The notes under the pieces are model-generated. The model searched no databases, was not told where the DNA came from, and saw nothing but the letters and a program-made list of their open reading frames with translations. A DNA stretch of 64,000 bases from Plantactinospora sp. KBS50 (GTDB lineage Bacteria; Actinomycetota; Actinomycetes; Mycobacteriales; Micromonosporaceae). This document shows, piece after piece, positions 2,699 to 41,573 of this stretch. The stretch lies in assembly GCF_002285795.1 (NCBI RefSeq), contig NZ_CP022961.1:2418001-2482000 (forward strand), written 5' to 3'. Numbering within the stretch: the first letter of the stretch is position 1; every line of letters begins with the position of its first letter. The position numbers and the translations under genes were made by a program.

Positions 2699-3511
2699 TC
2701 AGTAGGTGTCGACGAGCTGGCCGCGCAGCTTGGTCAGGGCGCGGGCGAGCAGCCGGGAGACGTGCATCTGCGAGACGCCGATCTGCTCGGCGATCTGCGA
2801 CTGGGTCAGGTTGCCGTAGAACCGCAGCGTGAGGATCTTCTGCTCGCGCTCGTCGAGGGTGGCGAGCGCCGGGCCGAGGGCCACCCGCAGCTCGGCCAGC
2901 TCGAACTCGCCGTCCTCGCCGCCGAGCATGTCGCCGAGTTCGGTCGCCCGCTCGCCGTCGCCGGTCGGGGTGGACAGCGACACGGCGTTGTACGCCCGTG
3001 CGCCCTCCAGACCCTCCAGCACCTCTTCCTCGGTGACCTTCAGGTGGGCGGCGATGTCGGCGACCGTCGGCGACCGGCCGAGCGACTGCAGCAGCGTGCT
3101 GTTCGCCTCGGAGATGGCCAGTCGCAGCTCCTGGAGCCGGCGGGGGACCCGGATGTCCCAGGTGCGGTCCCGGAAGTGCCGCTTGAGTTCGCCGATGATG
3201 GTCGGGATGGCGTAGCCGGCGAAGTCGACGCCGCGGCTGGGGTCGAACTTGTCCACGGCCTTGATCAGGCCGACGGACGCGGTCTGCACCAGGTCGTCGC
3301 TGGGCTCGCCCCGGCCGCTGTAGCGGTGGGCGAGGTGCTGGGCCAGCGGCAGCCACGCCTCGATGGCCCTGGCCCGCAGCGCGGCGCGGGACGGGTGCCC
3401 GGCCGGCAGCGCGGCCATCGCCTGCAGCAGCTCGGTGGCGCTGTCGCCCGGCTGGGTCGCGGTCGGTGCGGTCGCGGGGGCGGTGGACTGCTGGGTCATC
3501 GTCGCGGTCAT
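2699..3511 (-). CDS. RNA polymerase sigma factor, SigB/SigF/SigG family
   Basis: A 270-residue sigma-70 group 3 factor. Region 2 carries DLVQTASVGLIKAVDKFDP and the -10 recognition helix (RDRTWDIRVPRR). Region 3 is near SLGRSPTVADIAAHLKV. Region 4 ends with a clear helix-turn-helix (LTQSQIAEQIGVSQMHVSRL). ATG 3511 is preceded by GGGAGGACCACC, a good ribosome site. Such factors drive general-stress or developmental regulons and are held by RsbW-type anti-sigma factors. No anti-sigma gene is adjacent, but the PP2C gene upstream and the SpoIIE/HATPase protein at 13961-16111 are typical partners. GTTT-N15-GGGTA promoters at 22.8-23.4 kb are plausible targets. Confidence 0.92.
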   Translation of the reverse strand: MTATMTQQSTAPATAPTATQPGDSATELLQAMAALPAGHPSRAALRARAIEAWLPLAQHLAHRYSGRGEPSDDLVQTASVGLIKAVDKFDPSRGVDFAGYAIPTIIGELKRHFRDRTWDIRVPRRLQELRLAISEANSTLLQSLGRSPTVADIAAHLKVTEEEVLEGLEGARAYNAVSLSTPTGDGERATELGDMLGGEDGEFELAELRVALGPALATLDEREQKILTLRFYGNLTQSQIAEQIGVSQMHVSRLLARALTKLRGQLVDTY

Positions 3512-21227: not shown

Positions 21228-22487
21228 ATGTCCAACGCGGCCCCGATCGCCGGCGGCACCGCACCGCCGGCCCGCCCGCTCATCCGGCCCCGGGCGTCCC
21301 TGCTGCTGCTCGGCTACCTGGCGTTCGTCAGCCTCGGGTTGCCCGACGGCCTGCTCGGGGTGGGCTGGCCGTCGATCTCGGCCGACTTCCAGGTCCCCGC
21401 GGCGGCCGTCGGGCTGCTGCTGACCGCCGGCACCGCCGGCTACCTCACCTCCAGCGTGATCGCCGGGTTCGCGGTCGCGCGGATCGGCATCGGCTGGCTG
21501 CTGGCCGGCAGCACCGCCCTGATGGGCCTCGCGCTGGCCGGCTACGCCGGATCGCCCGTCCTCGCGGTGATGGTCGGCTGTGCGCTGGTGGCCGGCCTCG
21601 GCTCCGGCGCCATCGACAGCGGCCTGAACGCGTACGCCGCATCGGCCTTCGGGCCGCGACACATGAACTGGATCCACGCCTTCTTCGGGTTGGGCGTCGC
21701 GGGCGGACCGATGATCATGACGGCGACGCTCGACTCGGGCCTCGGCTGGCGCTGGGGATACGGCACCGTCGCCCTGGCCCAGGCCGGACTCGCCGTGGCG
21801 TTCATGCTGAACGTGCGCTCCTGGGCCGCCGGCCGGCCCGCCGCGCCGGCCGGGGACGCGGCGGACGCCGGAGGCACCGGCGGCGCCGTACCGATCGGGC
21901 GGACCCTCCGGCTGCCGGCGGTCTGGCTCGGCGCGCTGGCCTTCGCCGTGTACGTCGCCGTCGAGATCGGCGCGGGGCTGTGGGCGTACACGGTGTTGAC
22001 CACCGGCCGGAACATGGGCACGACGGCGGCCGGGATGGTGGTGACGCTCTACTGGGGCAGCCTCTTCGTCGGCCGGGTCGTGCAGGGCTTCGTCGCCGAG
22101 CGCCAGGGCACCCGGGGCGTGCTGCGGGCCAGCCTGCTCGGCATGGTCGTCGGGGCCGGCGTGCTGGCCGTACCCGGGCCGGGCTGGCTGGCCGCGGTCG
22201 GCCTGGCGGTGCTCGGCTTCGCCGCCGCCCCGGTCTTCCCGCTGCTCACGCTCACCACGGCGGACCGGGTGGGTGCCGCGCACGCCGACCGGGTGATCGG
22301 GGTGCAGATCGCCTCGGCCGGCCTCGGGGGCGCGTTGATCCCGGCCGGGATCGGCGTGCTGCTGGGCTGGTACGGCCCGGTGGCGCTCGGCCCGACCCTG
22401 CTGGTGCTCTCCGCGGTGCTGACCGCGCTCTACCTGCTCACCGAACGCCGACCCGCCGCGCCGCCACCCTCCGCACGGGCGCTCTGA
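21228..22487 (+). CDS. MFS transporter
   Basis: 419 residues, about 12 hydrophobic segments. ATG 21228 follows GGGGGAGGAAGTTGCC. The N-terminal half has SLGLPDGLLGVGWPSI and GLGSGAIDSGLNAYAA, patterns seen in FucP-like sugar-permease relatives. The central loop is Ala/Gly-rich. The signature VAERQGTRG lies between helices 8 and 9. The substrate is unknown; a sugar or small metabolite is likely. It is divergent from the TetR gene and may share its operator. Confidence 0.85.
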   Translation: MSNAAPIAGGTAPPARPLIRPRASLLLLGYLAFVSLGLPDGLLGVGWPSISADFQVPAAAVGLLLTAGTAGYLTSSVIAGFAVARIGIGWLLAGSTALMGLALAGYAGSPVLAVMVGCALVAGLGSGAIDSGLNAYAASAFGPRHMNWIHAFFGLGVAGGPMIMTATLDSGLGWRWGYGTVALAQAGLAVAFMLNVRSWAAGRPAAPAGDAADAGGTGGAVPIGRTLRLPAVWLGALAFAVYVAVEIGAGLWAYTVLTTGRNMGTTAAGMVVTLYWGSLFVGRVVQGFVAERQGTRGVLRASLLGMVVGAGVLAVPGPGWLAAVGLAVLGFAAAPVFPLLTLTTADRVGAAHADRVIGVQIASAGLGGALIPAGIGVLLGWYGPVALGPTLLVLSAVLTALYLLTERRPAAPPPSARAL

Positions 22488-22525
22488 CCAACGGGCCGGC
22501 GCCGGGCCGGCTGCTGGGGTGGGTG

Positions 22526-22804
22526 TCAGTTCGGGCCGGTGCGTCCGGTGGTGGACGGCCGGAACGGGCGCTGCGGGTCGGTCGGGTCCCGCCCCGAGTC
22601 GTCGGTGGCGTCCGGCTCGACGGAACTCGTGTGCCGCTCGTCGGTGGCGGTCGGCCCGTGGCCGAACGCCGACTCCTCGCCGGCGTCGTTGCCCGTCGCG
22701 TCATCGACCTGCCCGTCACCGGGGGAGGTGGCGATGGCCTGCTCCAACTCGCTGAGCGGCAGGCGTTCCTCGTCGCGCCACACGCGCGGATCGTTGTCGG
22801 TCAT
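22526..22804 (-). CDS. Small acidic hypothetical protein with a SigF-type promoter
   Basis: 92 residues from ATG 22804, hydrophilic and Asp/Glu-rich, probably disordered (TDNDPRVWRDEERLPLSELE, then ATGNDAGEESAFG). No family recognised. There is no ribosome site, but a promoter-like GTTT-N15-GGGTAC ends about 10 bp before the ATG, which would give an almost leaderless mRNA. Its neighbours at 22862 and 23402 carry the same promoter type, so it is probably a stress-induced protein. Confidence 0.62.
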   Translation of the reverse strand: MTDNDPRVWRDEERLPLSELEQAIATSPGDGQVDDATGNDAGEESAFGHGPTATDERHTSSVEPDATDDSGRDPTDPQRPFRPSTTGRTGPN

Positions 22805-22814
22805 GCCTGCAGCC

Positions 22815-22839
22815 GTACCCCGGCGGCCGGGCACCAAAC
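22815..22839 (-). promoter_or_regulatory. SigF-type promoter (GTTT-N15-GGGTAC)
   Basis: Minus strand: the -35 GTTT is the complement of 22836-22839, the -10 GGGTAC the complement of 22815-22820, spacer exactly 15 bp. This matches the known SigB/SigF group consensus GTTT-N14-17-GGGTAT. The predicted start lies about 4 bp upstream of ATG 22804. Confidence 0.65.
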
Positions 22840-22861
22840 GGCGCCGGCCGCCGGGTCGCGG

Positions 22862-23272
22862 CTACCAGCGCTGGGTCTCGGTGTTGTGTCCCAGCGCCGC
22901 CCAGACCTCGTTGATGGTCCGGTACTCGACGTCGTCGGGCAGCCGGTCCAACTCCGCCAGGATGTCGCTCGGTGCCTCGTTCTCCTCGGCGTTCGCGCGC
23001 AGCGTCAGCCGGTCGCCGGGCAGCGCGGCGAGGGTGATGAACCGGCCGAGCCGGCTGCGCTGCTCGACCTCCTCGGAGGTCATCCCCTGCGGTGCTCCAC
23101 TGCGCCGGTCACCCGCCGGCGCCGTCGTCGCCTCCGGCTGGTCCTCGCCGGCCGGCTCCGGGGTACGCCACTCCTCCGCCCGGGAGCCGGCGGTGTGCCG
23201 TAGCTGCTCGTTGGCCTCCCGACTCATCTGGTCGTCGACGCGCGGTCCGTGCTTGCTGTTGCCACGTTCCAT
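22862..23272 (-). CDS. DUF2795-like protein
   Basis: 136 residues from ATG 23272. The first 70 are charged and disordered (Gln/Glu/Arg-rich). The C-terminal half matches the DUF2795 pattern (LRANAEENEAPSDILAELDR, then LPDDVEYRTINEVWAAL). The role is unknown; such proteins often sit with stress genes. The promoter-like GTTT-N15-GGGTAG ends 11 bp before the ATG, consistent with the lack of a ribosome site (near-leaderless). Confidence 0.72.
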   Translation of the reverse strand: MERGNSKHGPRVDDQMSREANEQLRHTAGSRAEEWRTPEPAGEDQPEATTAPAGDRRSGAPQGMTSEEVEQRSRLGRFITLAALPGDRLTLRANAEENEAPSDILAELDRLPDDVEYRTINEVWAALGHNTETQRW

Positions 23273-23282
23273 ACCGAGTGCG

Positions 23283-23307
23283 CTACCCGCGGGTATGCCG
23301 GCTAAAC
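23283..23307 (-). promoter_or_regulatory. SigF-type promoter (GTTT-N15-GGGTAG)
   Basis: Minus strand: GTTT is the complement of 23304-23307 and GGGTAG the complement of 23283-23288, spacer 15 bp, upstream of the DUF2795-like gene. Confidence 0.65.
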
Positions 23308-23347
23308 GCCGGCCGGGGCTCGGGCGGGACGCGGACGGCGCACCGTC

Positions 23348-23372
23348 GTTTGTCGCCGGTGGCGCCGGGAAC
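23348..23372 (+). promoter_or_regulatory. SigF-type promoter (GTTT-N15-GGGAAC)
   Basis: Plus strand: GTTT 23348-23351 and GGGAAC 23367-23372, spacer 15 bp, about 30 bp before the ChaB gene. It differs from the consensus -10 GGGTAT at two positions, so it is weaker than the two divergent ones. Confidence 0.5.
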
Positions 23373-23401
23373 CCGACCGGTCGACTGGAAGGGGGACCGG
23401 C

Positions 23402-23938
23402 ATGCCCGGACGCGAGGTACTGCCCAGCACGCTGCGCCGCTCCGATCGGAAGGCGCAGGAGACCTGGATCAAGACCCACGACTCGGCCGTCGCCACCTAC
23501 GGCGAGGGGCAGCGGGCGCACCGTACCGCCTTCGCGGCGGTGAAGAACACGCACGAGAAGGTCGGCGACCACTGGGAACCGAAGCGCCGGCGGGGGCCGA
23601 GCGACGCCCAGGCCGCGGGCGGCGGTCCGGCCCGCCGGGCGCCCACGGCCGGCGGGGTGGATGCCAACGCGCCGAAGGAGCACCTGATGGCCGTGGCGCG
23701 CAAGCTCGACGTACCGGGCCGGTCCCGGATGACCAAGGGGGAACTGGTCACGGCGATCCAGAAGGTGAACAACCGGCGCACCACCGCGGCCCGGGGCCGC
23801 AGCGCCAGTTCGGCGGCCCGGGGCCGCAACGCCGGTTCGGCGGGCCGGGGTCGCAGCGCCGGTTCGGCGGGCCGGGGTCGCAGCGCCGGTTCGGCGACCC
23901 GGGGCCGCGCCGGCAACCGGGCCGGGCGCGGGCGCTGA
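23402..23938 (+). CDS. ChaB domain protein with Rho-N-like domain and basic repeat tail
   Basis: 178 residues. ATG 23402 follows GGAAGGGGGACC. Residues 1-60 are a ChaB-like domain (LPSTLRRSDRKAQETWIKTH, then HRTAFAAVKNTHEKVGDHWE). Residues 88-125 resemble a Rho N-terminal/SAP-like helical fold (KEHLMAVARKLDVPGRSRMT). The tail is four 9-residue units of the type RGRSAGSAG, coded by a 27-bp DNA repeat at 23790-23897. The tail is Arg-rich and would bind nucleic acid or polyanions. A SigF-type promoter precedes it. Confidence 0.8.
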   Translation: MPGREVLPSTLRRSDRKAQETWIKTHDSAVATYGEGQRAHRTAFAAVKNTHEKVGDHWEPKRRRGPSDAQAAGGGPARRAPTAGGVDANAPKEHLMAVARKLDVPGRSRMTKGELVTAIQKVNNRRTTAARGRSASSAARGRNAGSAGRGRSAGSAGRGRSAGSATRGRAGNRAGRGR

Positions 23939-23944
23939 CCCGCG

Positions 23945-24019
23945 GATCACCGCGGCCGGCCGATCACCGCGGCCGGCCGATCACCGCGGCCGGCCGATCA
24001 CCGCGGCCGGCGGATCACC
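23945..24019 (+). repeat. 17-bp tandem repeat, four copies
   Basis: GATCACCGCGGCCGGCC units start at 23945, 23962, 23979 and 23996, followed by a partial copy. Each contains the self-complementary CCGCGG and GGCCGGCC. It fills the gap between convergent genes and may terminate both. Confidence 0.9.
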
Positions 24020-24038
24020 GGGCGCGCCGGGCGGACGG

Positions 24039-25478
24039 TCACCAGCCGGTCGACTGCCCGCCCGGGGCGCCCAGGTGCACCACCTTGGTGACGGTCATCT
24101 CGTCCAGCAGCTCGGGGCCGTACCCGAAGCCGTCCCCGCTGCCGCGGCGCGGCTGCGCGGCACCGCCCGGGGCACCGCCGAAGACCGCGTTGATCTTCAC
24201 GGTGCCGACCGGCAACTCCCGCCAGGCGCGTTGCGCCCGGGACATCGAGCCGGTCAGCACGGTCGCCGCGAGGCCGTACCGCGAACTGGCCGCCCGGGAC
24301 AGCGCCTCGTCGAAGGACTCGACCACCATCACCGGGGCCACCGGGCCGAACGTCTCCTCCCGCATCACCGCCATCCGGTCCGTGCAGTCGCTCAGCACGG
24401 TGGCCGGGTAGAACGCGCCGGGGCCGGCCGGCACCTCGGCACCGATGAGCGCCCGCGCACCGTCGGCGAGCGCCGCGCTGACCTGACCGTGTACGTGGTC
24501 GCGCTGGCGCCGGTCGACCAGCGGACCCAGCTCGGTCAGCGGATCCCGGCCCGGTCCCGTCCTGATGGCGTCGGCCCGCTCCACGAGGGCGCTCAGGAAC
24601 CGGGCCGACGCGTCGCGCAGCACGTAGATCCGTTCCACCGCGACACAGAGCTGCCCGGCGTTGGTGAAGGCGCCGAGCGCGGCCTGTTCGGCCGCCCACT
24701 GCGGGTCCACGTCGGCGTCCACGATCAGCGGGTCGCTGCCGCCGTTCTCCAGCAACGGCTTGGCGTACGTGCGGGCGCAGGTGGCCGCGATGGCCCGCCC
24801 GGTGGCGGTGGAGCCCACGTGGGCCACCAGGTCCACCTCGGCGGCGGCCAGCGCGGCGCCGACCGGGCCGTCGCCGGTCAGCAGCGACAGCACGCCGGAG
24901 GGCAGGTGCTGGTCCAGCAGCCGGGCCAGCAGCCAGCCGCTCGCCGGGGTCCGCTCGCTGGGCTTGTACACCACCGCGTTGCCGGTGACCAGGGCGGCGC
25001 CCAACAGGCCGCAGGAGACGGCCACCGGGTCGTTCCACGGGGTGAGCACGGCCACCACGCCCCGGGGCTGCGGCACCATCACGTCGATCGCGTCCGGCGC
25101 GCCCAGCAGCGACCGGCCCCGGTGCACCGGGCCGAGTTCGGCGTACTGGCGCAGCGTCGCCACGCCGGCGGCCACCCCGCCGCGGGCGGTGCCGATCGGC
25201 CGGCCCATCTCGGCGGTCTGCGCGGCCGCGAGTTCGTCGGCCGCGGCCTCCACCGCGTCGGCCGCCCGGTGCAGCGCGGCGGCGCGCTCGGCGGCCGGGG
25301 TGGCCGCCCAGCCGGTCGCGGCCGTCCGGGCGCCCTTCACCGCGGCGGCCACCGCCTCCGGGCTGGCCGTCGGCGCCGTGGCCACCGGCGTGTCGTCGGC
25401 CGGGTCCCGCACCACGACCTCGCCCGTTCCGTTCCCGGCGCCCCAGGCACCCGCTACGAGCTGCTGTACGTTGTACAT
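24039..25478 (-). CDS. Aldehyde dehydrogenase family protein
   Basis: 479 residues from ATG 25478; a TTG at 25511 would add 11. The NAD-binding region has VVAVLTPWNDPVAVSCG and KPSERTPASGWLLARLL. The general base is in LLENGGSDPLIV (family usually ELGG, here ENGG). The catalytic Cys is in NAGQLCVAVERIYV. The C-terminal motif EETFGPVAPVMVV is intact. It oxidises an unknown aldehyde to an acid with NAD(P)+. No clear ribosome site. It is divergent from the CrtI-like gene 150 bp away, a possible functional pair. Confidence 0.88.
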   Translation of the reverse strand: MYNVQQLVAGAWGAGNGTGEVVVRDPADDTPVATAPTASPEAVAAAVKGARTAATGWAATPAAERAAALHRAADAVEAAADELAAAQTAEMGRPIGTARGGVAAGVATLRQYAELGPVHRGRSLLGAPDAIDVMVPQPRGVVAVLTPWNDPVAVSCGLLGAALVTGNAVVYKPSERTPASGWLLARLLDQHLPSGVLSLLTGDGPVGAALAAAEVDLVAHVGSTATGRAIAATCARTYAKPLLENGGSDPLIVDADVDPQWAAEQAALGAFTNAGQLCVAVERIYVLRDASARFLSALVERADAIRTGPGRDPLTELGPLVDRRQRDHVHGQVSAALADGARALIGAEVPAGPGAFYPATVLSDCTDRMAVMREETFGPVAPVMVVESFDEALSRAASSRYGLAATVLTGSMSRAQRAWRELPVGTVKINAVFGGAPGGAAQPRRGSGDGFGYGPELLDEMTVTKVVHLGAPGGQSTGW

Positions 25479-41504: not shown

Positions 41505-41573
41505 CGAGGGCCACTGCTACCCGCGGAAGATCCCCGCGAAACGACACCCACCGACCCGGCCCGCACCGGCGGG

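Follow-up and report, generated by a model that had tools for sequence, protein, structure and literature searches.

Conserved SigB/SigF-type promoter motifs upstream of chaB, DUF2795 and acidic-protein genes in Micromonosporaceae

Here we present an analysis of three neighbouring small genes of a soil bacterium of Micromonospora type, within a 64-kb window (the whole stretch of DNA that was analysed), whose upstream sites are very probably general-stress promoters of the SigB/SigF family, giving three transcripts: a leadered chaB mRNA and near-leaderless mRNAs for a DUF2795 protein and for an acidic protein. The motifs, their conservation, their fixed distance from the start codons, a genome-wide regulon of the same sites and the family of the sigma factor were all observed.

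Three sites and their genes

The first-pass annotation had placed GTTT-N15-GGG-type motifs before the three genes, and the sequence bears out all three positions. Each site combines a −35 GTTT with a −10 GGGWA over a spacer within the 14–17 bp taken to define a SigB/SigF-type promoter. The features are as follows, with distances to the ATG counted from the last base of the −10.

2699–3511, minus strand: sigma factor of the SigB/SigF/SigG family (TIGR02980, 283.6 bits against a cut-off of 234.35)
22526–22804, minus strand: gene for the acidic protein, 92 aa (pI 4.17, GRAVY −1.33, 9.8% Gly; strongly hydrophilic)
22815–22839, minus strand: predicted SigB/F-type promoter GTTT-N15-GGGTAC, ending 10 nt before the acidic-gene ATG (22804)
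22862–23272, minus strand: DUF2795 gene, 136 aa (disordered N-terminal half; helical C-terminal DUF2795 domain, residues 72–124)
23283–23307, minus strand: predicted SigB/F-type promoter GTTT-N15-GGGTAG, ending 10 nt before the DUF2795-gene ATG (23272)
23348–23372, plus strand: predicted SigB/F-type promoter GTTT-N15-GGGAAC, ending 29 nt before the chaB ATG (23402)
23389–23396, plus strand: purine-rich Shine-Dalgarno-like stretch AAGGGGGA 5' of chaB, read from the sequence; relatives have GGAGG there
23402–23938, plus strand: chaB-type gene, 178 aa (ChaB domain, Rho_N domain and basic C-terminal repeat tail; pI 11.98)

The identities proposed earlier for the DUF2795-like and ChaB neighbours hold, both domains scoring above their Pfam gathering cut-offs: DUF2795 (PF11387) reaches 35.7 bits against 25, and ChaB (PF06150) 67.5 bits against 27, with Rho_N as the second domain of that protein. 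The predicted structure of the DUF2795 protein has a mean pLDDT of 70.2, with values of about 90 in the helical C-terminal part and a disordered N-terminal half that contains a KHGPRxDDxM-like motif. The model found no fold match in the PDB below E 2.6, a sequence search of the PDB gave nothing better than E 0.087, and a literature search on DUF2795, judged by titles, returned nothing on stress or sigma factors. The acidic protein has no match in Pfam or NCBIfam and is conserved (49–64% identity to four relatives); its 72 orthologues among the best 80 of 234 loci span 7.8–15.3% Gly and GRAVY values of −1.34 to −0.99. Hydrophilins are defined by high glycine content (>6% Gly) together with strong hydrophilicity. 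The acidic protein is hydrophilin-like in composition and may have a protective role. The ChaB–Rho_N protein, in turn, is predicted to bind nucleic acid (DNA or RNA), presumably also in a protective role.

The Gly/Arg/Ser repeat tail of the ChaB protein is encoded by a 27-bp tandem repeat (4.6 copies, 23786–23908) and is missing from most relatives, in which the protein has about 133 aa against 178 here. A separate 17-bp tandem repeat, GATCACCGCGGCCGGCC, lies at 23945–24020 between the ends of chaB and the next gene (4.5 copies at 98%). A search for RNA families across 22400–24100 gave two matches, both far under their gathering scores, which we regard as chance.

Motif frequency and conservation

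Sites of this type are far more frequent than chance would give. GTTT-N14-16-GGGWA has seven matches in the window against 0.18 expected, a number reached in none of 100 dinucleotide shuffles, and the narrower GTTT-N15-GGGWAS has four against 0.03 expected. The genome-wide scan that had been proposed confirms the enrichment, with 66 matches in 6.69 Mb against 12 for a reversed-pattern control, and in 30 of 31 related genomes the motif is commoner than its control (the exception being G013). The 15-bp spacer claimed for all sites is true of the three described here; the genome-wide matches are spread over 15, 16 and 14 bp (33, 20 and 13 matches, respectively).

We then considered the upstream regions of relatives. 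Named genomes were scanned with six DUF2795 proteins, and the counts that follow refer to the best 80 of 234 loci, all from Micromonosporaceae, which were picked by protein similarity only; loci in which the alignment did not start at residue 1 were dropped (one for DUF2795, two for the acidic gene and one for chaB). A GTTT-N15/16-GGG[T/A/C]A motif lies 8–12 nt before the DUF2795 ATG in 78 of 79 cases, at exactly 10 nt in 77 of them; the strict GGGWA form is found in 67 of the 79, the remaining 12 having GGGCAT at the same position. The acidic gene has a GGG[T/A/C]A-type motif 9–10 nt before its ATG in 71/72, and chaB, which is leadered, has one 33–78 nt before its ATG in 72/75. The −10 variant is gene-specific, each gene retaining its own form across relatives: GGGTAG for DUF2795 (64/78), GGGTAC for the acidic gene (67/71) and GGGAAC for chaB (50/72). 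Column by column, 79 unique upstream regions display conserved −35 and −10 blocks around a variable spacer. Among more distant DUF2795 relatives (six proteins, 33–43% identity), G011 and G018 retain the 10-nt layout, G016 has a weaker site (GGTT-N16-GGGTAG, 12 nt from the start), G003 has a motif about 80 nt from the start, and G026 and G030 (L073) have no GTTT-type site 5' of the DUF2795 gene.

That the motifs are chance matches in GC-rich DNA is barely credible. Both elements, GGG and GTTT, are short; of the 66 genome matches, at least 4 fall in rRNA operons and 12 lie inside predicted genes. However, this explanation is at odds with the window expectation of 0.18 and with a fixed distance conserved across as many as 79 independent sequences from the best 80 of 234 loci, and it is refuted by the column-wise footprint of the −35 and −10 blocks. 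The comparisons support the prediction that SigB/F-type promoters on all three genes are conserved across Micromonosporaceae.

The arrangement of the genes is similarly constant within the best 80 of 234 loci. chaB is present in 76 of the 80, always divergent from and upstream of DUF2795, and the acidic gene in 74, always on the same strand as DUF2795 and downstream of it. In most of these loci the starts of chaB and DUF2795 are about 1.2 kb apart, and about 0.6 kb lies between DUF2795 and the acidic gene. In the loci that were read, the first gap holds a BrkB-family membrane gene, often with a motif of its own, and the second a polyketide-cyclase-family gene; relatives L112, L164, L121 and L173 carry one or both, and the window has neither. 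Transporter and aldehyde-dehydrogenase genes flank the module in the window and in relatives alike, so the window holds the same locus. Given the BrkB-family and polyketide-cyclase genes that most relatives have in these gaps, we regard the tight three-gene layout as a probable contraction, derived from a five-gene stress island.

A genome-wide regulon and its candidate sigma factors

The three genes had been described as a compact regulon. Their SigB/F-type promoters hold up, but the regulon is neither compact nor self-contained, the sites forming part of a genome-wide set. Of the 66 genome matches, 54 have no overlapping predicted gene (those in rRNA operons counted in), of which 44 have a start codon no further than 250 nt away, gene starts being taken from a custom codon-usage gene finder; we put the regulon at about 45–50 sites. 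Genes recognised by Pfam 3' of the sites encode DUF2231, DJ-1/PfpI, MT0933-like antitoxin, Hva1_TUDOR, erythromycin esterase, DUF6343, hemerythrin, dksA/traR zinc-finger, polyketide-cyclase, GAF-ANTAR and FMN-reductase proteins. Other downstream genes, named from sequence alone, would encode a catalase, a thioredoxin, a ClpC-like ATPase and MoxR, RecQ-like helicase and WhiB-like proteins. Since catalase, DJ-1, ClpC-like, hemerythrin and DUF2231 genes share the same sites, the gene set is that of a general stress response, a SigB/SigF-type regulon. Within the window, a GTTT-N16-GGGTAG site at 41518–41542 (minus strand) lies 12 nt before the RecQ-like helicase gene.

The promoters had been assigned to the factor at 2699–3511. 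Its SigB/F-family identity is secure. It falls below the cut-off of the SigF equivalog PRK07122 (NF005514; 286.3 bits against 372), so we do not call it SigF by name. Its role at the three promoters is likely but unproven, as the genome encodes two SigB/F/G-family factors above the TIGR02980 cut-off. The second, at genome position 3080135 outside the window (257.8 bits against 234.35), has a STAS domain fused to its C-terminus (Pfam STAS_2, 46.1 bits; C1:3080135-3080800 region, L103:1390-2520) and lies among 10 clustered motif sites at 3.03–3.12 Mb. It is possible, though not the reading we would choose, that SigB/F-type promoters at the module are read mainly by this STAS-fused paralogue, or by both factors: it passes the family threshold, it lies amid motif sites, and Streptomyces SigB paralogues cross-recognise promoters according to the available text of PMC8346170. 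On the other side, orthologues of the 2699–3511 type (69–88% identity) occur in all six module-bearing genomes examined and the STAS-fused type in five (G014 has no clear full-length match), and the distance between the 2699–3511-type gene and the module is about 20 kb here and in G002 and about 45 kb in G009. Distribution and proximity mildly favour the 2699–3511 factor. No rsbW was found among the neighbours of the 2699–3511 gene. In the distant relative G030, chaB has a STAS gene ahead of it and a SigB/F/G gene about 2 kb further along. A sigma factor with an antagonist-like STAS domain, kept in several relatives, deserves its own look; our literature search found no report of one in Micromonospora.

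In the proposed mechanism, a stress signal would free the general-stress sigma factor, probably through an anti-sigma/antagonist switch encoded elsewhere, and RNA polymerase with the freed factor would make three separate transcripts. The chaB mRNA would be leadered, with a ribosome site; the DUF2795 and acidic mRNAs would start 0–4 nt before their ATG, and ribosomes would load straight onto the start codon.

The closest known counterpart is the SigF regulon of Mycobacterium smegmatis, for which we relied on the available text of two studies. Its consensus is GTTT-N(15-17)-GGGTA, and chaB shares a transcript there with rsbW and sigF, made from a SigF-dependent promoter (PMC7390352); MSMEG_1802 (ChaB) decreases in the sigF mutant, a RecQ gene is SigF-dependent, and by our own count 16 genes in the SigF table list a motif 8–11 nt from the start codon (PMC4694148). 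The two regulons resemble each other in consensus, in having several targets with a motif 8–11 nt from the start, and in including ChaB, hemerythrin, catalase, MoxR and RecQ genes. They differ in the position of chaB, which here lies some 20 kb away from the sigma gene, and the SigF table as available to us (PMC4694148) names neither the DUF2795 nor the acidic gene. Compared with the SigB consensus of B. subtilis (GTTTAA-N12-14-GGGWAW) and of S. coelicolor (GNNT −35, GGG-N-A −10), as given in the part of PMC8346170 at hand, the sites here have a strict GTTT −35 and a last −10 base that is C or G instead of T. SigF control of ChaB and a SigF-dependent leaderless gene are already known, and the target genes are little studied. 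The present analysis provides a well-supported predicted stress regulon for Micromonosporaceae and connects the general stress response with two uncharacterised proteins, one of the DUF2795 type and one acidic and conserved; the SigF–ChaB link of mycobacteria appears to be retained in this family with chaB apart from the sigma gene.

Near-leaderless starts

The minus-strand pair had been called nearly leaderless. The 10-nt spacing stands and so does the missing ribosome site, neither ATG being preceded by a Shine-Dalgarno sequence by eye (chaB has one); a leader of 0–5 nt is a prediction from the 10-nt distance. Exact transcription starts are thereby predicted and open to test. That the two genes are instead leadered from starts further upstream, the conserved motif being a second, minor start, is quite improbable. 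Leadered forms do exist, in that the DUF2795 gene of G026 is closely preceded by a DUF2231 gene and has no motif, and 14% of leaderless mycobacterial genes have leadered transcripts too (available text of PMC6448022). Against this, the two minus-strand genes are only 58 nt apart, neither has a Shine-Dalgarno sequence, the 10-nt distance recurs in 77 of 79 DUF2795 relatives from the best 80 of 234 loci, and the first codons of both genes are conserved among relatives. The near-leaderless reading has parallels in other actinobacteria: leaders of 0–3 nt are efficiently translated in M. marinum (PMC8022548, in part), and the S. coelicolor gene sspA is SigF-dependent and leaderless, its transcription start coinciding with the translation start by S1 mapping. 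sspA resembles the present pair in its SigB/F-type promoter (GTGT-16N-GGTTAC) and leaderless start, and differs in being a sporulation gene that is also bound by BldD and encodes an unrelated protein (all from the available text of PMC4282423). A literature search found no report joining leaderless genes and an alternative sigma factor in Actinoplanes.

Across the genome, distances from the −10 to the start are bimodal: 10 sites have 8–12 nt, one has 17 and none has 18–27, the remaining sites being at least 28 nt from the start save two, where the start was predicted upstream of the −10 end. At one of these two, 4989669, an ATG lies 9 nt past the −10, which may add slightly to the near-leaderless class. 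When 150 genomes of the order were scanned, an ATG or GTG came after GTTT-N14-16-GGGTA at N9–12 in 833 cases and at N18–21 in 354, some of the latter being second in-frame codons of the same DUF2795 genes; N9–12 is in excess in 95 genomes and the reverse holds in 17, the rest being ties. A special preference of the regulon for leaderless starts is nevertheless weakened: the near-leaderless share here is 10 of the 44 sites that have a start no more than 250 nt away and are free of overlapping genes, close to the 24% of all M. smegmatis transcripts that are leaderless (available text of PMC6448022), and leaderlessness is thus not special to the regulon. It is rather unlikely that the fixed gap of 9–10 nt marks a translational sub-regulon, in which a subset of general-stress genes would stay leaderless throughout the order for translation under impaired Shine-Dalgarno initiation; in Micromonosporaceae, its best-conserved members would be the DUF2795 and acidic genes.

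The genome has one other DUF2795 gene (63 aa; C1:5527991-5528283), with GTGT-N15-GGGTAG 9 nt before its ATG. It is divergent from an erythromycin-esterase-like gene, which itself has GTTT-N15-GGGTAG 9 nt before its ATG.
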